Source of the DNA: Pseudomonadota bacterium
Lineage (GTDB): Bacteria > Desulfobacterota > Desulfobacteria > Desulfobacterales > JAHIVH01
DNA: 64,000 nt
Direction: 5' to 3'
NCBI GenBank assembly: GCA_018816735.1
Contig: JAHIVH010000052.1
Span: 44,131 to 108,130 of the forward strand
The first letter of the stretch is position 1; each line of letters starts with the position of its first letter. A program made the translations under genes and the position numbers. The notes below the pieces were generated by a model. It searched no databases, was not told the DNA's origin, and saw only the letters and a program-made list of their open reading frames with translations. This document shows, one piece after another, positions 5,663 through 18,505 of the stretch.

Positions 5663-6280
5663 ATGAACAGATTAATTTCATTTCCGGCAGAGTTTGATTA
5701 CAATTTGTTGTTACACGCATTAAAGGATTACAAAAAACCACGAGATAAAATCAGGGGGCTCATCCGGGGCAAGGATATCATAAGGGTAAAAAAAGGTCTT
5801 TATGTTTTAGGAAAGGACTACAATAAACCTTACAACAAGTATGTATTGGCAAATCTGATTTATGGGCCATCTTATATCACGGGTCAAACCGCTTTGGAAT
5901 TTTGGCACATGATACCGGAACGTGTTGAACTTATCATCAGCATGACAACGAAAAGAAAGAAGAAATTTGAAACGCCGGTTGGCAGTTTTTCCTATTTGTA
6001 TTGCCCTAAACCGGCCTTTAATATTGGAATTAAACTTGAAAACGCGGGAGACGGAAAAAATTTTCTAATTGCATCCCCGGAAAAGGCGTTATGCGACATT
6101 GTTGCAAACCAAACTCACATTAAGGCGAAAAAGGAAATGCAGGAATTCCTTGAATTAATGCGACTGGATTCAAGTTTTTACGAGAACCTTAATTACTCAT
6201 TATTAAAAGAAATAGAGACCGGATATCATAGGCAATCATTAAAGCTGCTCGCCAATTGTTTAAAGGACAGTTATGTTTGA
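5663..6280 (+). CDS. abiEi: AbiEi-family antitoxin (type IV toxin-antitoxin)
   Basis: This 205-residue protein has the AbiEi layout: an N-terminal winged-helix region (about 15-60, ending IIRVKKGLYVLGK) and a C-terminal antitoxin domain with YITGQTALEFWHMIPE and ASPEKALCDIVAN. Antitoxins of this family bind their own promoter and oppose the AbiEii nucleotidyltransferase toxin without a stable protein complex. The start overlaps the toxin gene downstream by 8 bases, a standard AbiE arrangement. It is AT-rich relative to the flanks and sits next to a tRNA, consistent with acquisition by transfer. Confidence 0.85.
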   Translation: MNRLISFPAEFDYNLLLHALKDYKKPRDKIRGLIRGKDIIRVKKGLYVLGKDYNKPYNKYVLANLIYGPSYITGQTALEFWHMIPERVELIISMTTKRKKKFETPVGSFSYLYCPKPAFNIGIKLENAGDGKNFLIASPEKALCDIVANQTHIKAKKEMQEFLELMRLDSSFYENLNYSLLKEIETGYHRQSLKLLANCLKDSYV

Positions 6281-7157
6281 TGAAAAAATTAACCAAATGC
6301 TAAAAAGGTATGAATTAAATACGATTCATGACCATGAAAATGCGCTAAAAGAGATCATACAAGAAGTCGTTTTGCTTGGTTTGTGGCGTTCCAAATTCTA
6401 TGAAAAGGCAGTTTTTTATGGTGGAAGTGCATTGCGGATTCTATATAAACTGGATCGTTTCTCTGAAGATTTGGATTTTTCGTTAATCGCACCAGAAAAA
6501 AAATTTGATATTAAAAAATATCTTGGTGCAGTTAAGTCTGAACTGGAATTATGGGGTTTTGAGGTTTCTAAAGAAGAACAAAATAAAAAGAATAAAAGTA
6601 CGATTGAATCCGCTTTTATTAAAGCGAACACATTGATTCATTTAATAAAAATTGATACCAATTTGAAAACGCATAAAAATGCTGTGATGAAAATCAAACT
6701 GGAAGTTGATATAGACCCTGCCGTTGGGTTTACAAGTGAAGATAAATATCATCTCCACCCTATACCCTTCACAATTAAAACCATGGCCTTGCCCAGTTTG
6801 TTTGCCGGAAAAATGCATGCATTGTTATGTCGGACAAGACAAACCAATATTAAAGGGCGGGACTGGTATGATATGATCTGGTTTATAAAAAATAATATCC
6901 CTTGTGATTTGATTTATCTTAAAAATAAAATGGTACAAACAGAGCATATTGATATATCTGAATCGTTGACCAAAGAAAAGCTTGCCAAACTTCTATATGA
7001 GAAAATAAAAGAAATCGATTTCGATCTGGCAAGAAATGACGTTGAACCATTTTTAAAAAATTCAGGGCAACGGGAAGAGTTAAGTCTGTGGTCTAAAGCT
7101 TTTTTTTCTGATTATCTGGTTCAGGAGATTCTTGTTCAAACGGAATTGTCAACTTAA
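6273..7157 (+). CDS. abiEii: AbiEii/AbiGii-family nucleotidyltransferase toxin
   Basis: A DNA polymerase-beta-like nucleotidyltransferase of 294 residues. The catalytic motifs are GGSALR (about 50-55) and EDLDFSL (about 65-71). The segment LPSLFAGKMHALLCRTRQTN followed by GRDWYD is the further conserved Lys/Arg region of AbiEii toxins. These toxins act in the cytoplasm, by nucleotide transfer to tRNA or other targets in studied members, to arrest growth and abort phage infection. Codons are strongly AT-biased. All catalytic residues visible are intact, so the toxin is likely functional. Confidence 0.87.
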   Translation: MFDEKINQMLKRYELNTIHDHENALKEIIQEVVLLGLWRSKFYEKAVFYGGSALRILYKLDRFSEDLDFSLIAPEKKFDIKKYLGAVKSELELWGFEVSKEEQNKKNKSTIESAFIKANTLIHLIKIDTNLKTHKNAVMKIKLEVDIDPAVGFTSEDKYHLHPIPFTIKTMALPSLFAGKMHALLCRTRQTNIKGRDWYDMIWFIKNNIPCDLIYLKNKMVQTEHIDISESLTKEKLAKLLYEKIKEIDFDLARNDVEPFLKNSGQREELSLWSKAFFSDYLVQEILVQTELST

Positions 7158-7886: not shown

Positions 7887-8336
7887 TTATTGTTTGAATA
7901 AAATATCCTTAGAGAAATGATTCCCAGATTTTAGTTCTGAAATTAAGAAAGTAAAGGCACTCTCGGCTCTACTTCGTAATTCACCATCATGCCAAATTGT
8001 ATTAAATGAATCGAATGCCAGGAACTTTGCAACTTCAACACACCTTAACACAACTGATGGCAGCTCAATTAATTCTATTGACCATCCTTTCCGGCTAAAA
8101 TGAATAAAATCGTTTCTGGAATCAACGGTAAATGTCATCCAGAAAATGAAAAAAATCATCAAATTTTTTACCCTTCGGAAAAGCCGATAGCACAGCATCT
8201 TCATCATACTCAAGGGTTTGACGTAAAGTGCTACGACTTCACCCGTGAGCATGATGAAGCTACGGCACTCACAACTTTTGCAACAATAGATGAAATAGGG
8301 GCTTTTTCGTCCCTGATACGTCACGTTCAGTCTCAT
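7887..8336 (-). pseudogene. Possible decayed gene downstream of the methyltransferase
   Basis: A 149-residue ORF starts in an ATGA overlap with the methyltransferase stop, which would suggest coupling. Its product is odd, however. A second minus-strand frame across the same bases reads TLEYDEDAVLSAFPKGKKFD..., which is more protein-like and ends at a TGA after about 38 codons. The later half in the first frame (FIHFSRKGWSIELIELPS) also looks coding. This alternation suggests a frameshifted remnant, though it may be a real unknown gene. Confidence 0.3.
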
Positions 8337-9175
8337 GTTGAGGCCGTTATAACGTCCGTATCCCAGTTGATCACTGCCCAGCGCACTGGTTCTGCAGCGG
8401 GGAGCAGCCAGCAGCCATTTTGTTTTTCCAGGTTGTCCCTGAAATAACGCCGGAGGCGGTCTTCTTCGGCAGGTGTCATATCATCGAGCATCCATCTGCT
8501 TTCTTCCAGGGCATCGTCATGATCTTCATAGGTCCGGTTCACGGGATGGACGGTGAAATCAAGCCGGGCATGGATTCCCATGCAGTAAAGCTGGTTTAGG
8601 ATGAAGATGTAATCAGGGCCAGGGTGATGGGTCCGGCCCACAGCCTCAATGATTCTCCGGTCAAAGGGGCCGGGATTGACCATGGCCGATATATAGACCT
8701 TTCTTCGGGCAAACCGGTTGAGCTTGGCGAGCAGTCCCGAAAGATCAGAAGTCACCATGGAGCGGGACGCAATGACCACGTCATGGGGTTCTACCCCGTG
8801 TGCCTCCCAGTCGTCTTCCATGCTTGCCAGAACCGGAGAGATCCCCGTGACGCGTTGATCTGTCATGCGTTCTTTAAGGATGGACAGCATCTCTTCCGAG
8901 AAATCCATGGCGGTGATGGAAAAGTCACGTTTGGCAAGGGGAATGGCCAGCGTTCCCGGCCCGCATCCTGCATCGAGGACGCTCCAGTCCGGCTGAAGAT
9001 CAAGCATGCTGATGAATTGTTCCGGATAGTCGCTTTTGTGATTTTGATGGTCTGCAAATCCCCGGGCGCGTTTGTTCCAGAACGACGGCTCTCTGTATGG
9101 CTTCTTCGACCGGCTCTGTGTCTGGGCCTTGGCCCAGGCCGCGCTCCAGTCAATGGTTCGGACATCCGTTTCCAT
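8333..9175 (-). CDS. Class I SAM-dependent methyltransferase of the uptake locus
   Basis: The Rossmann methyltransferase core is visible: motif I VLDAGCGPGTLAIPLA, the acidic strand ITAMDFSEEML, and a later DVVIASRSMV. The 280-residue protein has extra N- and C-terminal segments. A strong AAGGAGG precedes the ATG. It is the last clear gene of the TonB/ABC operon, 23 bases after the receptor. The substrate is unknown; position suggests it acts on the imported ligand or on something needed to use it. It shares little visible sequence with the other methyltransferase of the locus outside the SAM motifs. Confidence 0.82.
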   Translation of the reverse strand: METDVRTIDWSAAWAKAQTQSRSKKPYREPSFWNKRARGFADHQNHKSDYPEQFISMLDLQPDWSVLDAGCGPGTLAIPLAKRDFSITAMDFSEEMLSILKERMTDQRVTGISPVLASMEDDWEAHGVEPHDVVIASRSMVTSDLSGLLAKLNRFARRKVYISAMVNPGPFDRRIIEAVGRTHHPGPDYIFILNQLYCMGIHARLDFTVHPVNRTYEDHDDALEESRWMLDDMTPAEEDRLRRYFRDNLEKQNGCWLLPAAEPVRWAVINWDTDVITAST

Positions 9176-9198
9176 GGTTTTTCCTCCTTCCTTTTCGA

Positions 9199-11214
9199 TC
9201 AGTAGCGATACATGAGGTTGGCGAAATAGGTGATGCCCGCTTCGGGGTAGCCTTCCTCAATCTCATAGTCCGTGTCGCCGATGTTATTCAGGCCCGCTTC
9301 TGCGCTGATGCTTTTGGTCAACTGATATAGCGCCTTGGCATCGGCAACAACATAACGTTCTGCCACACGAACGCCATCCGTTGAACCGTAGCGCCTGGAC
9401 ACATAGTCAATATTCGTCTGCAAATTTAACCGATCAAAAGGCTGGTATGCCAGATAAGCAAAAAATTTATGGTTGGGTATGTTGGTCACCTTGTCTGAGT
9501 TGCTCCGGTTGTCCCATTCAGTGTAGGTGTAATTCAGACCGGTTTCTATAGTTTCCGTGATTTTAACACCGGCTTCGGCTTCAGCACCATAAATCAGCAC
9601 CTTTCCCACGTTCTGATTCTGATTGAGAAGCGTATCCGGATCATTGGGATCAGGCACCCGGGCAAACTGGATGTAATCTCTGATATCGTTACAGAATATG
9701 GCGGCTTTGATTTGTATTCTTTCCACCAGCGTGTCCTTATATCCGATTTCATAGTTGACGGCCGTTTCCGGATCCAGGCCGGGGTTGGGCAGAGCAGTGC
9801 CAAATCTGTATGAATAGCGTGATTTCATATCCGGAAGCCGGGTTTTTCTGGCCACGGTGGTGTGGAGTACGCCATTATCTGAAATGGAATAGAACAGTCC
9901 CGCCTGAGCATTGGCGCCAGAGGCATCTGCATCGGGAAAAACACTCACCACATCTGTTTTAAAATCATACTCCTCAGCCCGGCCGGATTGTATTGTATCG
10001 TAACTGGCACCCGCCACTACGCGGAGTGAAGACGTCATATCCATGGTGTCTTCAACACCCAGGGAATAGATATCGTCTTCAAAGGTCCGCCAGGGCTGGC
10101 CCTCGTCGCGTTCTTTATGGGTGTCCTTTTTGTAATGAAATGCCAGTTTCAGGTCGTGGTCCTCAAAAAACCGGGCCCCGGCTTCCATGGAACCGCCGGA
10201 CGTATGGTCGTCATACCAGCTCCGGAATGCGTATGGCCTGCTGATGGTGCTGTAGGTATCGTCATCGTAACTGAACAGGGAATTGTTATAGGTATCGTAA
10301 TAAAGACGCATTTTGACGTAGCCTGTTTCACCGATTCCCGTTCTCGATGTAAAATAATAGCTTTCTTTATCCCACTGAGGCCACTGCCAGTATCGGACTT
10401 TTTGAGACGCATCTGCGCCGGCATAAGGGGGGGAGCCTTTTTCTCCCTCCTGCCGGATATAACTGAAAGCGTATTCGTCATCATTCCGGCCACCTGGCAC
10501 GTAGCCGATTTTCAGGTTGGCTTTCCAGTCTGTATGATATGAATTTTCCCGGCGATCTCCCCCTTCGGCCGATGCAGGATTGAAATTATATGACAACGGA
10601 AAGTAATCCTGATCCACATAAGCGCCGCCGCCCTGGATGTACCAGTTCCCCTGATTGCTGCCCAGATTGATATAGGCGTTGCAGGTATCGCCGCTTGCCG
10701 CACCCACGCCGGCATTCATTTCCAATGCATTTTCAGGCCGTTTTGATACCATGTTGATGGCACCGCCCATGGTGTTCGGGCCATAAAGCACGGATGCAAA
10801 TCCTTTGGACAGGATCACCCGGGACAGGTCGAATGTGGAAAAACGCCCCAGATCCGGATACCCGTCGTACATCACGTAAACAGGGATGCCGTCGATAAAA
10901 ATCGGAACATGCTTGATATCGAATCCCCTGACGTAAACCGTCTGCTCGTTTCGGGAACCGGTCCGGGACAGGGTCACACCGGGCAGCAGATCCAGTGCAT
11001 CGGCCAATGTGTCCCTGTTGAATTGCCGCAATTTTTGTTCGTCCACGTGGTTGTCAGTGTCAACAGGTGTTTCGCTGTCCGTTGCCACCACCACTTCTCC
11101 CAGTGTAAAGGTGCTCTGTTCCGATATACGGGTTTTCCCTTCCTCTGCATTCACTGCTTGAATGAATAGCACTGTCATGACTGTCAACATTACATAGACA
11201 TATCTCTTCCCCAT
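9199..11214 (-). CDS. TonB-dependent outer-membrane receptor
   Basis: A 671-residue receptor: signal peptide (MLTVMTVLFIQAVNAEE), then TFTLGEVVVATDSETPVDT, which probably contains the TonB box, then a plug domain with LADALDLLPGVTLSR and VYVRGFDIKHVPIFIDGIPV. A long beta-barrel follows, ending in YFANLMYRY with a terminal aromatic residue as outer-membrane proteins require. It resembles siderophore and corrinoid receptors, but the ligand cannot be read. Its start overlaps the end of the ATPase gene by 25 bases, so it is part of the ABC/TonB operon. Confidence 0.93.
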   Translation of the reverse strand: MGKRYVYVMLTVMTVLFIQAVNAEEGKTRISEQSTFTLGEVVVATDSETPVDTDNHVDEQKLRQFNRDTLADALDLLPGVTLSRTGSRNEQTVYVRGFDIKHVPIFIDGIPVYVMYDGYPDLGRFSTFDLSRVILSKGFASVLYGPNTMGGAINMVSKRPENALEMNAGVGAASGDTCNAYINLGSNQGNWYIQGGGAYVDQDYFPLSYNFNPASAEGGDRRENSYHTDWKANLKIGYVPGGRNDDEYAFSYIRQEGEKGSPPYAGADASQKVRYWQWPQWDKESYYFTSRTGIGETGYVKMRLYYDTYNNSLFSYDDDTYSTISRPYAFRSWYDDHTSGGSMEAGARFFEDHDLKLAFHYKKDTHKERDEGQPWRTFEDDIYSLGVEDTMDMTSSLRVVAGASYDTIQSGRAEEYDFKTDVVSVFPDADASGANAQAGLFYSISDNGVLHTTVARKTRLPDMKSRYSYRFGTALPNPGLDPETAVNYEIGYKDTLVERIQIKAAIFCNDIRDYIQFARVPDPNDPDTLLNQNQNVGKVLIYGAEAEAGVKITETIETGLNYTYTEWDNRSNSDKVTNIPNHKFFAYLAYQPFDRLNLQTNIDYVSRRYGSTDGVRVAERYVVADAKALYQLTKSISAEAGLNNIGDTDYEIEEGYPEAGITYFANLMYRY

Positions 11215-12104
11215 TTTCCTTTATCTCCTTTTTTCGATTTGATCAGGACGAATCCGGATTGCCGATTCCTTCCTTCTTTTGTTTGATCATTGGATGTGTC
11301 TGTTCTGCTTTTCTTCTTGATTTGGGATGTCAGGGCGTCGGGTACGCAGACCCGGATGCCCGAGCGGGTTTGCGTCACATCCATGTCCAGGTGATACAAA
11401 TCCGAAAGGGACGTCCGGGTAATGGCATTTTCCGCAGATCCTTCTCTCACCACTTTACCGTTTTTCAGCATAAGGACCTGACCATCCATCCACAGGGCAT
11501 GATCCGGAAAATGGGTGGTCTGGATAAATGTGTATCCTTCCTGGGCAAGGCTTTGAATGATGGTGAGCAAGCGTATCTGATTCCCGTAATCCAGGCCGCT
11601 CACCGGCTCGTCCATGACAAAGGTGCGGGCTCCCTGGGTCAGGGCGCGGGCAATCAGGCAGAGCTGCCGTTCTCCGCCGCTTACAGCCGTGTAGGGCCGG
11701 TTCTTCAGGTGAACGATACCCAGCCGAGCCATGGCCGATTCAGCCAGATGCTCATCCTCTTTCGAATACCTGAAAAAAAAGGGTTTGTGGGGAATCCGAC
11801 CCATCATCACCACATCCAGCATCCGGAAGGAAAAGGCCATGTGGTGGACCTGGGGAACATAGGCGATGTCTCTGGCCAGAATCCGGGAGGGAAGATTTAA
11901 AACCGGGCAGCCGTTTACCAATACGGTTCCGGCATCAGGCCGATAAAACCCCAGGATCAGTTTCAGCAGGGTGGTTTTGCCGCTGCCGTTCGGCCCCAGC
12001 ACCCAAAGGATTTCTCCCTTGGGAATCGCCACGGAAACCTGATCCAGAACGGATTTCCCATTGTAGGCAAAGCTGACCTGGTTCACCGATATAAAGGCCA
12101 TCAT
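11190..12104 (-). CDS. ABC transporter ATP-binding protein, FecE/BtuD type
   Basis: Walker A is GPNGSGKTTLLKL, the signature is VSGGERQLCLIARAL, and Walker B is TFVMDEPVSGLDYG. This is the ATPase for the FecCD-type importer upstream. The start chosen is the ATG at 12104, which overlaps the permease stop as ATGA and has AAGGA at the right distance. The ORF-track start at 12158 would add 18 residues inside the permease. After the ABC domain there is an unusual charged tail (KKKSRTDTSNDQTKEGRNRQ...), part of which lies over the receptor start region. Confidence 0.92.
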   Translation of the reverse strand: MMAFISVNQVSFAYNGKSVLDQVSVAIPKGEILWVLGPNGSGKTTLLKLILGFYRPDAGTVLVNGCPVLNLPSRILARDIAYVPQVHHMAFSFRMLDVVMMGRIPHKPFFFRYSKEDEHLAESAMARLGIVHLKNRPYTAVSGGERQLCLIARALTQGARTFVMDEPVSGLDYGNQIRLLTIIQSLAQEGYTFIQTTHFPDHALWMDGQVLMLKNGKVVREGSAENAITRTSLSDLYHLDMDVTQTRSGIRVCVPDALTSQIKKKSRTDTSNDQTKEGRNRQSGFVLIKSKKGDKGKWGRDMSM

Positions 12105-13117
12105 CCCCATCCTTTCCTGGCGTGTTTTAACACCAGCACGAAAAAGGGAATCCCGCAAAGGGCGGTTAAAATGCCCAACGGAATTTCCACAGTGAAAACC
12201 AGTCGTGACAGATCGTCCATAAGGAGAAGATACAACGCGCCGATCAGGGCCGATGTCGGGATAAGGATCCGGTTGTCCGGGCCGATGAGCATCCGGGCAA
12301 TGTGGGGCACCACAAGACCCACCCAGCCGATGATACCGGCCATGACTACGGTGAGCGCACTCATCAGCGTGGCGCAGGAAATCAGAACGGCCCGGACCAA
12401 CCCCACATGAACCCCCAGGGACCGGGCTTCCTCGTCCCCCATGCTGAGGGCGTTCATGTAAGGGGTCAGGGTCATGAGGGCAGCCATTGATGCCAGAATG
12501 GGAAGGCTTAGGTATATCAGCAGGTCGTTGGTCAGTGTCGACAAGCCGCCCATAAGCCAGAACACAATGGCGGGAAGCTGGTTGTAGGGATCAGCCAGAT
12601 ATTTCACGATAGAGAGAAGCGCGGTAAAAAAAGCGCCGCTTATGATCCCTCCCAGGATCAGCATCAGAAGACGGTCTCCGGTATTAAACCGAGCAAGAAC
12701 CATGGAAAGACTCACAGCGCCGCACCCGAATGCAAAGGCTAAAATCTGAACCCAAAGAAGGCTGTTGAAGAAAACCATGCCAAGGGCGGCTCCGAAAGAT
12801 GCACCGGCCAGAACACCGAGAAGCCCCGGAGACACAAGGGGGTTGATAAACATGGACTGAAAGGCGGTGCCGGAAACCGACAAGGCAGAACCCACCATCA
12901 CTGCCCCGATGATCCGGGGCAGGCGGATGTCAAGAAAGATATTCTGCAAAAGACCCATTTCCTGCTCTTTTCCCCCAGGGCAGCCGTGGAAAGACCAGGA
13001 GGTGAAATTCATCATATCGTCAAGACTTACAGGGTAACGACCCAGAAGCAGGGATCCCAGGCTCGCGACGGCAAGAAGGAGTGAAATGGCAAGGACCACC
13101 GGGAAACGTTTCATCAT
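12101..13117 (-). CDS. FecCD-family ABC importer permease
   Basis: This 338-residue membrane protein has about ten hydrophobic helices in the BtuC/FecD pattern. Family hallmarks include LGRYPVSLDD near the start, RLPRIIGAVMVGSALSVSGTAFQ, GGIISGAFFTALL, and MAGIIGWVGLVVPHIARMLIG. It forms the inner-membrane channel for an iron-siderophore, haem, corrinoid or similar metal chelate. It overlaps the binding-protein gene upstream and the ATPase downstream by 4 bases each, giving tight translational coupling. Confidence 0.93.
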   Translation of the reverse strand: MMKRFPVVLAISLLLAVASLGSLLLGRYPVSLDDMMNFTSWSFHGCPGGKEQEMGLLQNIFLDIRLPRIIGAVMVGSALSVSGTAFQSMFINPLVSPGLLGVLAGASFGAALGMVFFNSLLWVQILAFAFGCGAVSLSMVLARFNTGDRLLMLILGGIISGAFFTALLSIVKYLADPYNQLPAIVFWLMGGLSTLTNDLLIYLSLPILASMAALMTLTPYMNALSMGDEEARSLGVHVGLVRAVLISCATLMSALTVVMAGIIGWVGLVVPHIARMLIGPDNRILIPTSALIGALYLLLMDDLSRLVFTVEIPLGILTALCGIPFFVLVLKHARKGWG

Positions 13118-14163
13118 GGTTCGAAAATCTCCCGGAGTTCGGCTTTGGCGAGTGGTCGGTCCAGAAAAAGGGAATAAAACGCCTGGGTCTCTTCATCCGC
13201 GTTCCAGGGATAAACATCCGGGTAAAAATTGTGGGCAAGCCATCTTGCCCCAATGAGACGCATGAACGACGGCGGCCTGTCAAACCAGTTCATGGGTTCC
13301 CTGGGAATCAGGTAAACCCTTTTGTCCCTGACGGCCCGGATGGACTTCCAGCGTTTATCTGCAAACAGGCCGGTATAAAAGGGAACGGAGTGGGTAACGA
13401 TCACCTGGGGATCATAAAGGATCACCTGTTCCATGGACACTTTGTCCATGCCGTAGCCGTCCTTCGCCATGCAGGTGTGAACGTTGACACCGCTGCAGAG
13501 GGGAATCAGTTCCGCATGCATGGAACCTTCACATTCAGTGGAAAGGCCGTCGTCGTTTTCCGCATAGTAAACGGTCACCCGTTTTTTTTCAGGCACGGCC
13601 GCCCGCACCGATTTCATGTCCGATAGCGTTTTTTCGGCGTACCGGGCAAGAGCTTCCGTTTGTTTTTCCTCCTCCAGAAGCATGCCCATGAAGCGGAACA
13701 CTGCCGGATAATCTTTCACATGATCCAGAACAACAAATACCAGCGGTGCGTTCAAGGGTTTCAGCACTTTTTCGATATCCGTGTTTTTCATGGACTGTTT
13801 GGACTGCCATGCCAGAATCAGGTCGGGGTGAACTGCCAAGAGACTTTCCATGTTGGGCGTCTGGCCCTGGCCGAACCAACCTCCGACCACCGGGAGCTTC
13901 AGAAGTATAGGGTCCGTGAATTTTTTTTCCGCGTCGCGGATGGGGGTGTTGAGACCCGCGAGTTTTTCGGGGGCCACCGCGCAGATCAGGTTGGTGGCCG
14001 GCGGAGATGTACCATAGATTTTTTTGATTTTTTCCGGAACCGTCACCATGCGTCCGGCCATGTCTACAATATCTCTTGCCAGGGAGTGGCCGTGAAGGAA
14101 AAAGAAGGAAAGCAGAACAGTCATAGGTAGTATGCGTAATCTGTTTCGGGTGTTGTATGTCAT
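13114..14163 (-). CDS. Periplasmic substrate-binding protein, FecB/BtuF type
   Basis: A signal peptide (LRILPMTVLLSFFFLHGHSLA) without a lipobox is followed by a type III binding-protein fold: DMAGRMVTVPEKIKKIYGT, MESLLAVHPDLILAW, and a final lobe VYLIPREPMNWFDRPPS. It should bind the chelate and deliver it to the FecCD permease. The ORF-track start (14193) is a GTG; the ATG at 14163 overlaps the upstream methyltransferase stop (ATGA) and has AAGGA before it, so it is preferred. Confidence 0.9.
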   Translation of the reverse strand: MTYNTRNRLRILPMTVLLSFFFLHGHSLARDIVDMAGRMVTVPEKIKKIYGTSPPATNLICAVAPEKLAGLNTPIRDAEKKFTDPILLKLPVVGGWFGQGQTPNMESLLAVHPDLILAWQSKQSMKNTDIEKVLKPLNAPLVFVVLDHVKDYPAVFRFMGMLLEEEKQTEALARYAEKTLSDMKSVRAAVPEKKRVTVYYAENDDGLSTECEGSMHAELIPLCSGVNVHTCMAKDGYGMDKVSMEQVILYDPQVIVTHSVPFYTGLFADKRWKSIRAVRDKRVYLIPREPMNWFDRPPSFMRLIGARWLAHNFYPDVYPWNADEETQAFYSLFLDRPLAKAELREIFEP

Positions 14164-14870
14164 AAACTGTTTTCCTTTTTTATGGTAATCCACAACCCTT
14201 TTTCCGGATCCTGATTCACACGGCAGTCCGGGAGACCGGATTCATCAAGCAAACGCGCAAATCGTTGAACCGCATCCGGCCCCAAACGACCGGAAACTTT
14301 TTTCCGCCAGTTGTCCTTCCCATTATTGCGTTCTTCCATCTTCCGGATAATGTCATCGCGGATACGGGCGGACCCGAATCCCCCGCCAACCATTGCTTTT
14401 CCGGCGGGTTTCAGCACCCTGTATATCTCACGGAAGGCCATGACCGGATCGCTCCAGAAAAAAACCGACCCCCGGCTGACAGCCAGATCCACACAGTTTT
14501 CAGGTAAAGGTATGGCCTCGGCAGTTCCCGAAAGCACCTGGAACCGTTCTTTCAAACCTTTTTGAATCGCATTCCGGGCAGCCAGGTCGCGCATCCCGTC
14601 GGAAGGGTCCAGAAATCCCAGGTCAAAAGGACCCATATCGGCAATGGCCAGCCCCAGGTACCCGCCCCCGCAGCCGATGTCCAGGCAGAAGCCTTCCCTG
14701 ATTCCCGTCTCCTGGACAATCTGGGCTGCGATTACCGGATAGGCCGGAGCGAAAATGGTGCGGGCGATCTCATCGAATTCTCGGGAATCGGGCATGGCTT
14801 CTTTGCCTTTTGACGGTTGTTCAACCCGGGATTGGGGCAGACTGTTCGACGGGGCTTGATCGGGTTGCAT
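14160..14870 (-). CDS. Class I SAM-dependent methyltransferase inside the uptake operon
   Basis: Motif I is FCLDIGCGGGYLGLAIADMG, followed by the acidic strand GFLDPSDGM, AEAIPLPENCVDLAVSRGSVFFW and REIYRVLKPAGKAMVGGGF. This is the UbiE/SmtA-like group of small-molecule methyltransferases. The ORF track begins at a TTG (14897); the ATG at 14870 with AAGGAG is better. It lies between tonB and the binding-protein gene, overlapping the latter by 4 bases, so the cell makes it together with the transporter. The substrate is unknown. Confidence 0.83.
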   Translation of the reverse strand: MQPDQAPSNSLPQSRVEQPSKGKEAMPDSREFDEIARTIFAPAYPVIAAQIVQETGIREGFCLDIGCGGGYLGLAIADMGPFDLGFLDPSDGMRDLAARNAIQKGLKERFQVLSGTAEAIPLPENCVDLAVSRGSVFFWSDPVMAFREIYRVLKPAGKAMVGGGFGSARIRDDIIRKMEERNNGKDNWRKKVSGRLGPDAVQRFARLLDESGLPDCRVNQDPEKGLWITIKKENSL

Positions 14871-14893
14871 GGCAAAACTCCTTTTCAATACGT

Positions 14894-15643
14894 TCAAGTA
14901 TTCAAGCGAAAGGTAATTGTTAACGAACAGCGCGATTCCTTTGGCTGATGATTTTGGTATGCCGGTAGGAATCTGTATTTTCTGACTGCAGTTACGGCTG
15001 CCTTGTCCAGCCCCTTATAGCCACTGCCCTGAACGATCCGGATGTCTTCGGCCTGTCCGTTTTCACGAACGAGGAACCGGAGGATAACGGACCCCTGCTC
15101 CTTATTCATGCGGCTTGAACGCGGGTATCGTGGCCGGATGGGCGAGGTGAGCCCGGGAGGGGTGGCGGATTCCTCGCACGAGAGGTGATCAGATTCCGGA
15201 ATTTTTCTCAGGACCGGATGTGCGGCAACCTGCTTTGGAACATTTATCTCATCTACAGGGGAGGAGGATAAGGCTTCAGGATTTGCATCCTCCTTATCCT
15301 CCTCTTTGGAGGAGATGACGAGGGATTTTGTTTGAGATTTGTCATGGCCGGGTTCGGTATAACAGGTGGCAGGGCCTTTTTTTCTTTCTTTAGTCACGGT
15401 TTTCCGGACATGGGGGGGTGACGGTGTCTGCGATGCCGGTTTCGGAAGAACTTCTGGTGGGTGTGACGTTTCAATCCCATCCGAAAGCCGGATATCCACT
15501 TGCAGCAGGTCAGGACGGCCCATGTCAGGAAGGGCCTGCTGTGAGTCCCGGACTTCAGCAACCCATGCGGCAGCGTAAACATGAACAGCGCTTGCCAGAA
15601 CCATGCAGCAGATATTCCATATCCATTCCCGGTATCGTGTCAT
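14894..15643 (-). CDS. tonB: TonB energy transducer
   Basis: One N-terminal membrane helix (WNICCMVLASAVHVYAAAWV), a long proline- and charge-rich periplasmic linker (about 40-165), and a C-terminal TonB domain with SVILRFLVRENGQAEDIRI and GLDKAAVTAVRKYRFLPAY. It couples ExbB/ExbD proton-motive energy to the receptor of the same operon. The start overlaps the exbD stop by 4 bases and has GGAGG. Confidence 0.92.
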   Translation of the reverse strand: MTRYREWIWNICCMVLASAVHVYAAAWVAEVRDSQQALPDMGRPDLLQVDIRLSDGIETSHPPEVLPKPASQTPSPPHVRKTVTKERKKGPATCYTEPGHDKSQTKSLVISSKEEDKEDANPEALSSSPVDEINVPKQVAAHPVLRKIPESDHLSCEESATPPGLTSPIRPRYPRSSRMNKEQGSVILRFLVRENGQAEDIRIVQGSGYKGLDKAAVTAVRKYRFLPAYQNHQPKESRCSLTITFRLNT

Positions 15644-16044
15644 GGAACCTCCACAGCCAGGGTAACGAGTTCATACCCTGCATTTTTCAACAATCCCATC
15701 ACTTCCACAATCAGACCGGTCCGACTGTCACGGTCGGCCCGGATGATTATTCCTTTTGTCCGGTCAGCACCCATTGCGGAAGCCACCGCGTGCACCACAT
15801 GATCCGGACCCATCACCCGGTCATTCACATATATTGTCCCGTCTGCGGTGATCATGATGGCCAAAGGACGGGAAGTTACGGTATCCGCTTTTGCAGACCG
15901 GGGAAGGGATAGGGTTACCCCATTGATCTCGGCCATATGCATCACGGCATAAAGAAAAAACACCAGAAGAAGAAACACCACATCGATCAGCGGGGTCATG
16001 TCCGGTTTGAGAAGCCGGGGGGATGTGTCAGCGGGATGTTTCAT
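15640..16044 (-). CDS. exbD: Biopolymer transporter ExbD
   Basis: A single N-terminal membrane helix is preceded by the family motif PDMTPLIDVVFLLLVFF, in which the Asp is the proton-carrying residue. A periplasmic ExbD domain ends in ELVTLAVEVP. The track start at 16077 lies inside exbB. The ATG at 16044 has GGGAGG 5 bases upstream and gives the usual short N-terminus (134 residues). It overlaps the exbB end by 17 bases. Confidence 0.92.
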   Translation of the reverse strand: MKHPADTSPRLLKPDMTPLIDVVFLLLVFFLYAVMHMAEINGVTLSLPRSAKADTVTSRPLAIMITADGTIYVNDRVMGPDHVVHAVASAMGADRTKGIIIRADRDSRTGLIVEVMGLLKNAGYELVTLAVEVP

Positions 16045-16645
16045 CAATCCTCCCTGCATCCCCCAGTGCACATTCAAGTCGTTCGGCCCAAACCACCGTG
16101 GTATGATGCCAGCGGGTATGGAGCACGGAAAGAAGGTTATGCGGCAACAGGGCGCTCACAGCCACGATCAAACCGGCCGCCGTACTGATCAGAGCCTGGG
16201 CGATTCCTGCTGAAACCTCATGCATGGCTGCCATATCTCCTAACGCTGAAAAAGACTGGATAATGCCCAGCACGGTTCCCAGAATCCCCATGAGGGGAGC
16301 CAGGGCTGCAATGGTTGACAAAAAAGAAAGCGCGACCAGCCCTGCCTCCGGCAGGTTCTCTGAACCTGATCCTGAATTTTTCGTCATGTCCCAAGAAGAA
16401 AGGCGTTTGCGATACCACCGGGAGACCGGATCAACCCCCTGACTGAGCTGCCGGGCCGTTAAAAAATCTCCTGTTTCGACGGCTTCGAGTACCCGCGCCA
16501 TCTGTTTTGAATCCCAGGACTTATAAGAAAGCAGGAAACAACCGGTTTCACGAATGGTCACGCTCAGCCCCAATATGGAGGTCACCGCCAGGGGCCACAT
16601 CACAGGTCCGCCATCTGCCATCCACGTTCCCAGCTTATCCCACAT
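16028..16645 (-). CDS. exbB: MotA/TolQ/ExbB proton channel
   Basis: The protein has the ExbB three-helix plan: an N-terminal helix after GGPVMWPLAVTSI, then a cytoplasmic region, then two helices with APLMGILGTVLGIIQSF and ISTAAGLIVAVSALL, the conserved channel segments. I chose ATG 16645, which has AAAGGGG 5 bases upstream and gives the typical ExbB beginning. The ORF track extends to 16711, which is also possible. It is the first gene after a 280-base intergenic region and probably leads the uptake operon. Confidence 0.9.
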   Translation of the reverse strand: MWDKLGTWMADGGPVMWPLAVTSILGLSVTIRETGCFLLSYKSWDSKQMARVLEAVETGDFLTARQLSQGVDPVSRWYRKRLSSWDMTKNSGSGSENLPEAGLVALSFLSTIAALAPLMGILGTVLGIIQSFSALGDMAAMHEVSAGIAQALISTAAGLIVAVSALLPHNLLSVLHTRWHHTTVVWAERLECALGDAGRIDETSR

Positions 16646-16742
16646 CAGAACCCCTTTCATGCCGCCTGCCGCTGTGAACGTACCCTGTGAGGCCCCTGAT
16701 TGGCCTGTCATGAATGATTGAATCCTGCATATAAATCCAAAA

Positions 16743-16834
16743 TGACGTTTATAAAGTAAATTATGTATACTAAACGAGAAATATGGAAATACTATTTATG
16801 TCAGTAAACGTCAATATGTTTTTTTAAAACGTCA
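16743..16834 (-). promoter_or_regulatory. Three TGACGTTT-type sites ahead of exbB, candidate operators
   Basis: TGACGTTTA (16743-16751) is matched by its inverse TAAACGTCA (16805-16813), and a third copy AAAACGTCA lies at 16826-16834. The last two are direct repeats exactly 21 bases apart, about two helical turns. They sit about 100-190 bases upstream of exbB, between it and the LuxR-type regulator gene. This looks like an array of regulator sites over the operon promoter. Which protein binds is inferred, not shown. Confidence 0.5.
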
Positions 16835-16997
16835 AATTTTTTATGATATCCTTTTTTGAACCATCATTATCCGTTATTTGAAAACAGATGCCGGTCAGCG
16901 CGTCAGGCCCTGATTTGTCAATCACATGAAGTGGAGATGATAGAATTTTTAAAATAACTGCGGGAATCTTCTTTATCTGAGAGGAAAAAATTTGGGG

Positions 16998-17852
16998 TTA
17001 AATGAGATCATGCTTTGCAGCTAAAACCGCGGCCTGGGTTCTGTCATTAACACCCAGTTTATTAAAGATGTGAATGACGTGACTTTTTACCGTATGCGGG
17101 CTGATGCGAAGCATTTCTGAAATGTCGTTGTTGGTTGAGCCGCCAGATAGCAGGCGCAGAACTTGTTTTTCACGGTCAGTCAATGGCGGCTGTCCCAGCG
17201 CCTGTGTTTTTTTGGTGTCTCTGTTTTCATCATTGTTTGATCCGGTTTCAACCACTTCCAGAGCTCTATCAGGCATTTCTTTTTGTTTTTCAGGATCTTT
17301 TTCAATCGTGACGGTTTGTGTAAGTTTTCCGTCATTGTCATAAACCGGATAAACCGCATATTCATAAATTGGAGAAGCAAATCCCGGGCAATGGTCTGCG
17401 GTTGTTTTGCCCCGGGAAAGTGCTGCGGCAAAAGCCATGCAGGTCAGATACCCGCAATCCTGACAATTGTTTCCGGGAAGCAGACGAAAGATTTCAATGG
17501 CGGAAACAGGCCTGTATTTACGGTAATTCGGGATGATTTCATTTTGCCTGAGATGTAAATCATTTAAGAAATCAACTAGTTTTTGGGCGAAGGCATTTGC
17601 GGATTCCCTGCCATTGAATGGGGCGGCAACGACCTCTTTCGGGTAGAGCGTACAGTGAACGCCTTCAAATACAAATATGATGTATGCGGGCTGATCATGA
17701 TATCTGGCGCCCGCTATCATGGCATTGATATAAGGGAAAATTGCCCTGACATCCGACGTAAGCTCAAAGTGCGCCCCCCAGCTTTTTTGTCCTGCAAGCG
17801 ACAAGATACCTGCTTTTGCAATCGAAATTTCCTTATATCCTTCAATCAGCAT
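16998..17852 (-). CDS. LuxR-type transcription regulator with an iron-sulfur cluster domain
   Basis: The C-terminus (about 225-284) is a clear LuxR/NarL helix-turn-helix: LTDREKQVLRLLSGGSTNND then PHTVKSHVIHIFNKLGV. The centre holds C130-x2-C133-x4-C138-x16-C155 in NNCQDCGYLTCMAF...HCP. This is the four-cysteine 4Fe-4S pattern of corrinoid iron-sulfur/ACS-type proteins. The N-terminal about 110 residues are an unrecognised domain with one more Cys (67). No receiver domain is present. It is probably an Fe-S-dependent sensor of iron, redox or the imported metal. It follows the DUF3786 gene by 38 bases and precedes exbB. Confidence 0.85.
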   Translation of the reverse strand: MLIEGYKEISIAKAGILSLAGQKSWGAHFELTSDVRAIFPYINAMIAGARYHDQPAYIIFVFEGVHCTLYPKEVVAAPFNGRESANAFAQKLVDFLNDLHLRQNEIIPNYRKYRPVSAIEIFRLLPGNNCQDCGYLTCMAFAAALSRGKTTADHCPGFASPIYEYAVYPVYDNDGKLTQTVTIEKDPEKQKEMPDRALEVVETGSNNDENRDTKKTQALGQPPLTDREKQVLRLLSGGSTNNDISEMLRISPHTVKSHVIHIFNKLGVNDRTQAAVLAAKHDLI

Positions 17853-17890
17853 AGACCCTTATATCTCCGGGGAAGTCCGGATGTCAAAGA

Positions 17891-18505
17891 TTAACCATAA
17901 GTTTTTATCAACCCTTGTGCTAAAGCCATGCCTGTCATGGCTAAACACTCCATATCGAGGTAGCGGCCGGCTCTCTTTTCAAACAAGATGGAACAATCTG
18001 CAGGAAACTCATCGTCCTGATCATTGAATAACAAATAGACCGGAATTTTGGGAAGCGCCCTGAATACATATGACAATTGAGCAGATACGCCAATGTCTGA
18101 GGCATTACCCCCCAATTCCCCGCAGCATTTTTCAAGCGCTGCAATTTTTCCTGAAAAATGATTAATGATCGGTTTTTCCGCTGTATTTCGAAAGCCGCCA
18201 ACATAAGGTGCTGCGGCCCTGAAATCTTTGTAAGTAACCAGCTCACAATCCAAACTGACTGTTTCCTGGCACAACAGAAGATATTTGCAGAGAATGACGC
18301 TGACAGCATGGTGGGGCTTTTTCCCTTGAGGGTCTGAAATCCCCTCGGGCGTGATCGTGAATATCTTGTCAAAAAACGGAATTAGAATGGTTTTTTTATC
18401 AACCTTAATTCCCAGTAAAGACGCTTTCTCAACAAAATCAATTGAAGCGACTTCCGAAATGTAATCGTTATATATCTTTTCAAAAACCGGTGCCTCCAAT
18501 CTCAT
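17891..18505 (-). CDS. DUF3786-family protein
   Basis: A 204-residue soluble protein. Segments such as SVILCKYLLLCQE, VTYKDFRAAAPYVGGF and FPADCSILFEKRAGRYLDME fit the DUF3786 family of anaerobic bacteria and archaea. There is no signal peptide. Cysteines are present but not as an obvious cluster. RBS GGGGGG is just before the ATG. The function is unknown; its place directly ahead of the Fe-S regulator and the TonB/ABC operon suggests a partner in sensing or handling the imported metal compound. Confidence 0.72.
   Translation of the reverse strand: MRLEAPVFEKIYNDYISEVASIDFVEKASLLGIKVDKKTILIPFFDKIFTITPEGISDPQGKKPHHAVSVILCKYLLLCQETVSLDCELVTYKDFRAAAPYVGGFRNTAEKPIINHFSGKIAALEKCCGELGGNASDIGVSAQLSYVFRALPKIPVYLLFNDQDDEFPADCSILFEKRAGRYLDMECLAMTGMALAQGLIKTYG

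Follow-up and report, generated by a model that had tools for sequence, protein, structure and literature searches.

A comparative survey of prokaryotes lists ModABC, WtpABC and TupABC as the sole importers of molybdenum (Mo) and tungsten (W); some Mo users possess none of the three, and additional importers may exist (PMC6147048). In Haemophilus influenzae, the MolBC-A system (HI1470-1472), which combines a FecCD-type (type II) permease with a MolA-type binding protein and serves molybdate and tungstate, is reported to provide extra Mo uptake at high external molybdate (PMC4031551). ModABC is a type I importer of free molybdate that has neither an outer-membrane receptor nor methyltransferases. 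A different architecture, with a receptor, TonB-ExbBD, a binding protein, a FecCD permease and an ATPase, is found in FepA-Fep and BtuB-BtuCDF. Molybdate is small and passes through porins, and to our knowledge MolBC-A has no dedicated TonB receptor, ExbBD-TonB complex or methyltransferases. No description of TonB-linked molybdenum uptake or of an outer-membrane step for Mo was found in the open-licence literature.

The window (the whole stretch of 64,000 nucleotides that was analysed) contains a locus with the FepA-Fep and BtuB-BtuCDF architecture, from which it differs in that its regulation and neighbours point to Mo or W and in that methyltransferases belong to the unit. All eleven ORFs described in the initial annotation as one minus-strand run are present in the ORF list at the coordinates and on the strand given there. 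The features are as follows:

17891..18505, minus strand: DUF3786 protein (150.9 bits), an upstream neighbour outside the conserved system
16998..17852, minus strand: Fe-S (PF04060) and LuxR-type HTH protein, an upstream neighbour outside the conserved system
16712..16997, minus strand: operon promoter region, 286 bp from the LuxR-type gene to exbB
16028..16711, minus strand: exbB, MotA/TolQ/ExbB proton channel (Pfam PF01618, 81 bits), gene 1 of the operon and the first ORF past the 286-bp promoter region
15640..16077, minus strand: exbD (Pfam PF02472, 83 bits); the listed TTG start may be too early
14894..15643, minus strand: tonB (Pfam PF03544, 79 bits)
14160..14897, minus strand: MT1, SAM-dependent methyltransferase (Pfam PF08241, 69 bits)
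13114..14193, minus strand: periplasmic binding protein (SBP; Pfam PF01497), the defining family of the cassette
12101..13117, minus strand: FecCD-type permease, MolB-like (Pfam PF01032, 265 bits)
11190..12158, minus strand: ABC transporter ATPase (Pfam PF00005, 102 bits); the listed TTG start may be too early
9199..11214, minus strand: TonB-dependent outer-membrane receptor (TBDR; Pfam PF00593 and PF07715)
8333..9175, minus strand: MT2, second SAM-dependent methyltransferase (Pfam PF13649)

The families ExbB, ExbD, TonB_C, Peripla_BP_2, FecCD and ABC_tran were all assigned above the Pfam cut-offs, and Pfam also confirmed the plug and barrel of the receptor, the two class I SAM methyltransferases and the FeS and GerE domains. 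The receptor, TonB-ExbB-ExbD, binding protein, FecCD permease and ATPase are thus encoded at a single contiguous locus, as in TonB-dependent metal-complex uptake systems. The operon is made up of nine genes (exbB-exbD-tonB-MT1-SBP-FecCD-ATPase-TBDR-MT2, 16711-8333) and not of eleven, since 286 bp carrying a shared regulatory motif separate the DUF3786 and LuxR genes from exbB; of the eleven-gene run, the ORFs, their places and their strand stand, and the single unit does not. The joints from exbB on had been described as mostly overlaps or short gaps, and the measured joints agree with this: given the start codons adopted here, adjacent genes overlap by 4 to 58 nt from exbB as far as the receptor, and 23 bp separate the receptor from MT2. 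Some of the listed TTG starts are likely to be too early, and later starts would make the long overlaps smaller. The close spacing makes one transcript plausible.

Two other features of the window lie beyond the end of the operon. An AbiEi-like/AbiEii type IV toxin-antitoxin pair (5663-7157, plus strand) is convergent with it. An ORF of 149 aa (7887-8336, minus strand) overlaps the end of MT2 and starts with MR followed by LNVTYQGRKSPYFI; over 14 residues this sequence is identical to part of the plug of another type of receptor, found in related loci (L082), and the ORF may be what is left of a second receptor gene that was deleted.

Among solved structures in the PDB, the best relative of the permease is MolB (HI1471, 2nq2) with 211 bits, the next entry reaching 148, whereas two FecCD paralogues of the window's genome match BtuC first and MolB last. 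The nearest structures to the binding protein are 4pag (E 2e-84) and 4ovk, followed by MolA (3psa, E 2e-11). The relationship to MolA is only a distant one. Entry 4pag, named merely 'Periplasmic binding protein', belongs to the same protein family as the binding protein of the window and shares about 80% identity with proteins encoded beside ModE genes at two Sulfurospirillum loci.

When MT1 and MT2 were searched for in 116 related genomes, close orthologues (41-62% identity) were found in six of them (G081, G079, G010, G013, G095 and G077), always adjoining the same binding protein (45-64%) and permease (51-74%). MT1 orthologues beside the same importer show 36-61% identity. The receptor of G079, which is 55.7% identical to that of the window, is encoded near MoeA, MT2 and MT1. 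For a broader comparison, the best 80 loci found with a binding-protein profile in named genomes (L082-L161) were set against 40 other FecCD loci from related genomes, some of the 80 being paired within one genome, so that their independence is incomplete. The hosts of these target loci are Desulfobacterota, Geobacter relatives, Sulfurospirillum, Sulfurovum, Sulfuricurvum, Rhodocyclales, Pelosinus and Methanoculleus; the inner-membrane part of the cassette extends to archaea and Firmicutes. Among the carriers of the cassette are Sulfurospirillum cavolei, Trichlorobacter thiogenes, Desulfosarcina cetonica and Desulfobacter vibrioformis. MT1 was found in 36/80 target loci and MT2 in 46/80, each against 0/40 controls; the corresponding counts were 39/80 and 3/40 for FmdE, and 26/80 and 0/40 for DUF364. 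At a stricter score threshold, 62 of the 80 loci held MT1 or MT2, and 16 held both. The production of the importer together with methyltransferases, pointed out in the initial annotation, is thus a grouping kept in many anaerobes, and the sequence comparisons likewise support its wider suggestion of a metal-compound importer with a private TonB system and two methyltransferases.

Loci with the importer and a methyltransferase often also hold FmdE, DUF364 or radical-SAM proteins. In about 15/80 loci, an AmmeMemoRadiSam-like radical-SAM protein has a C-terminal part resembling a periplasmic binding protein (noted at L087:5036-6829, L067:15489-17279 and L066:10827-12689). A luciferase-like flavin monooxygenase is encoded inside the cassette in 17/80 loci (L123, L124, L133, L139 and other Campylobacterota) and in 0/40 controls. 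Distant MT2-like proteins (about 25% identity) occur in L072, L074, L075 and L076 beside ABC importers of the peptide/nickel type; TonB receptors are present there wherever the contig extends far enough, and L076 also has FmdE. These four loci may represent a TonB cassette that parallels the present one but is built on a different type of importer.

The initial annotation had also paired an Fe-S sensor with DUF3786 inside the system. Neither the Fe-S LuxR protein nor DUF3786 was found in any of the 80 target loci, and the best LuxR relatives (G047, G044, G014 and G009) have neither DUF3786 nor the importer adjoining. DUF3786 is present in five copies in the window's genome, the one at 17891..18505 included. 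The supposed sensor module therefore belongs to the local neighbourhood and is no conserved part; both proteins were rejected as members of the system. What recurs in other genomes is the importer with MT1, MT2 or both.

MT1 and MT2 are generic class I methyltransferases by sequence and predicted fold. Both models are of high confidence (pLDDT 89.7 for MT2), and the fold nearest to MT1 is 3dlc (mmp1179), an uncharacterised protein of Methanococcus maripaludis with 40% identity. Neither the sequence nor the fold comparison gave a substrate hint for MT1 or MT2, the fold of MT2 matching no specific substrate. In the Methanoculleus loci, MT1 and the binding protein are retained together with a radical-SAM protein that carries a fused binding-protein-like domain. 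As these archaea have no outer membrane, MT1 goes with the inner-membrane importer and not with the receptor, which weakly favours the processing of an imported ligand over the synthesis of a secreted one.

Molybdenum genes accumulate around the relatives of the operon. According to NCBIfam assignments of representatives, the neighbour clusters of the 80 loci include ModE, ModA, ModB, MoeA, ModD, formate dehydrogenase and Fe-only nitrogenase. With E. coli molybdenum genes as queries, chosen to avoid circularity, at least one of modE, modA, moaB, moaC, moaE, moeA and fdhD was found in 22/80 targets versus 1/40 controls (p = 5e-4), and modE itself in 13/80 versus 0/40; 58/80 target loci lack any Mo gene of the E. 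coli type within roughly 10 kb. Restricting the comparison to Desulfobacterota-like loci (as judged from their titles) gave 15/52 versus 1/40 (p = 7e-4). Unrelated E. coli genes showed no enrichment in targets over controls. The anfK gene of Fe-only nitrogenase, an enzyme typically used under molybdenum scarcity, lies near the cassette in L121 and L152 (Geobacter, Pelosinus). Besides modABC, the window's genome encodes a second modABC-like set and a TupA-like set for tungstate, so the nine-gene system is not needed for plain oxyanions. A DUF364 gene overlaps the end of modC as the last gene of the genome's own molybdate operon (L233:10177-10944; G000:C62). FmdE has earlier been recorded near metal-ion transporters, its function being guessed only as metal-related (PMC2954224); for DUF364, too, the only guess at a function is a metal-related one. 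DUF364 and FmdE would fit a set of accessory proteins handling Mo or W.

Counted from the start of exbB, the promoter of this gene carries TGACGTTT-N13-TGACGTTT, the two copies lying at -123 and -102, and further downstream AAACGTCA at -39. In the same genome, the modA promoter carries TGACGTTT-N12-TGACGTCT at -153 and -133 and AAACGTCA at -81. The pattern TGACGTYTN{11,14}TGACGTYT has exactly two matches in the 6.5-Mb genome, before exbB and before modA, against 0 matches in 6.5 Mb for the control pattern read backwards and about 0.07 expected from base composition. As the motif was picked after viewing both promoters, the match in the window comes at no cost, and modA served to fit the degenerate letters. 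The weight lies in the absence of a third site and in the longer layout that the operon has in common with the molybdate transporter promoter. This modABC promoter adjoins the gene of a PBP_like regulator. Regulators with HTH and PBP_like domains flank modABC, the second modABC-like set and the TupA-like set, and occur in 13/80 target loci versus 1/40 controls.

For other genomes, sites were scanned with the published ModE consensus (PMC2700814, PMC545781) at no more than two mismatches. This yielded 28 ModE-type sites in 20/80 target loci, compared with 1 site in the 40 controls and none in five first-order Markov shuffles. Most of the sites lie directly upstream of the receptor, MT1, the binding protein, DUF364 or MT2, and they come from several phyla. 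The likeness to ModABC/ModE systems thus consists in the operator common with modABC of the same genome and in the ModE-type operators of relatives. In the window's own promoter, the same two-mismatch scan found no ModE box; a ModE protein with the DNA-binding domain alone is encoded elsewhere in the genome. The direct-repeat operator of the exbB type was not above control in other loci and therefore seems lineage-specific. No Moco riboswitch was found in modABC and six relatives.

Two readings would assign the importer to other cargoes. Corrinoids, suggested as possible cargo in the initial annotation, would make it a vitamin B12-type importer whose methyltransferases act on corrinoids or corrinoid proteins. 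BtuC and BtuF do belong to the FecCD and Peripla_BP_2 families, and MT2 weakly matches CpaM, a corrinoid protein-associated methyltransferase (44 bits, where the cut-off is 180). However, the permease is closest to MolB and it is two of its same-genome paralogues that prefer BtuC; furthermore, cobT, cobS and cobU are absent from the 80 target loci (cobT 0/80 versus 3/40 controls), and a search of the window gave no cobalamin riboswitch. Corrinoid uptake is therefore the least probable of the readings weighed here. Iron-siderophore or haem import, with Mo genes as neighbours by chance, is very unlikely. Private TonB-ExbBD sets and FecCD importers are typical of iron uptake, and an ABC/exbB/exbD/tonB cluster has been predicted under Fur control in Desulfovibrio (PMC545781), but fur and feoB occur in 0/80 target loci, the Fur-box score of the operon promoter does not exceed that of shuffles, and the operator is common with modABC. 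B12, Fur, FeoB, Hyp and Nik genes were not enriched in the 80 target loci over the 40 controls. Both readings were rejected after comparison of the permeases, inspection of the genes nearby and scans for operators.

Very probably, the metal concerned is molybdenum or tungsten, given the operator common with modABC, the flanking Mo genes and ModE-type operators, and the MolB-like permease. The initial annotation had named both metals among those to be assayed, and the regulatory evidence now favours them, although they were not the cargo it proposed. Tungsten in place of molybdenum is unlikely: anaerobes commonly have tungsten enzymes, some loci contain formate dehydrogenase genes, and either oxyanion could be sensed by ModE and PBP-type regulators, yet the shared operator precedes modABC, with none found in front of the TupA-like operon of the same genome, and MolB is part of a molybdate system (PMC4031551). 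It is rather doubtful that, with the same metal and route, the methyltransferases make or mature a secreted Mo- or W-binding ligand instead of breaking down an imported one. Methyltransferases, radical-SAM proteins and luciferase-like monooxygenases are also known from biosynthetic clusters, and radical-SAM or luciferase-like genes occur in some target loci. However, the conserved neighbour clusters of the 80 loci included no recognisable NRPS, NIS synthetase, other chelator-making gene or exporter, and the retention of MT1 in Methanoculleus suits intracellular processing at least equally.

The reading preferred here, with a probability of roughly 0.75, is that the operon encodes a high-affinity uptake system for a Mo or W compound, co-regulated with modABC and working as follows. 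Under Mo or W scarcity, a metal-sensing repressor, from its position probably the HTH and PBP_like protein encoded beside modA, would leave the shared operator, so that the nine-gene operon and modABC would both be expressed. The receptor, energised by its own TonB-ExbB-ExbD, would then take up a Mo or W complex too rare or too large for porins; since molybdate itself crosses porins, a receptor that is supplied with a TonB system of its own would point to a scarce complex as cargo. The binding protein would pass this complex to the MolB-like type II ABC importer. The ligand would then be methylated in the cytoplasm by MT1 and MT2, which would weaken its grip on the metal, and Mo or W would be freed for cofactor synthesis. 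More tentatively, the cassette may provide Desulfobacterota, Campylobacterota and other phyla with a TonB-driven outer-membrane route for an organic or thio complex of Mo or W, intracellular methylation of the metal-binding groups being the release step.

Methyltransferase-linked TonB uptake of a Mo or W compound is thus the most likely role of this operon in its anaerobic host. In sulfidic, anoxic settings molybdenum is tied up. Uptake driven by a receptor would account for the ability of sulfate reducers and kindred anaerobes to compete for this metal, and it would give FmdE, DUF364 and the two methyltransferase families a testable role.
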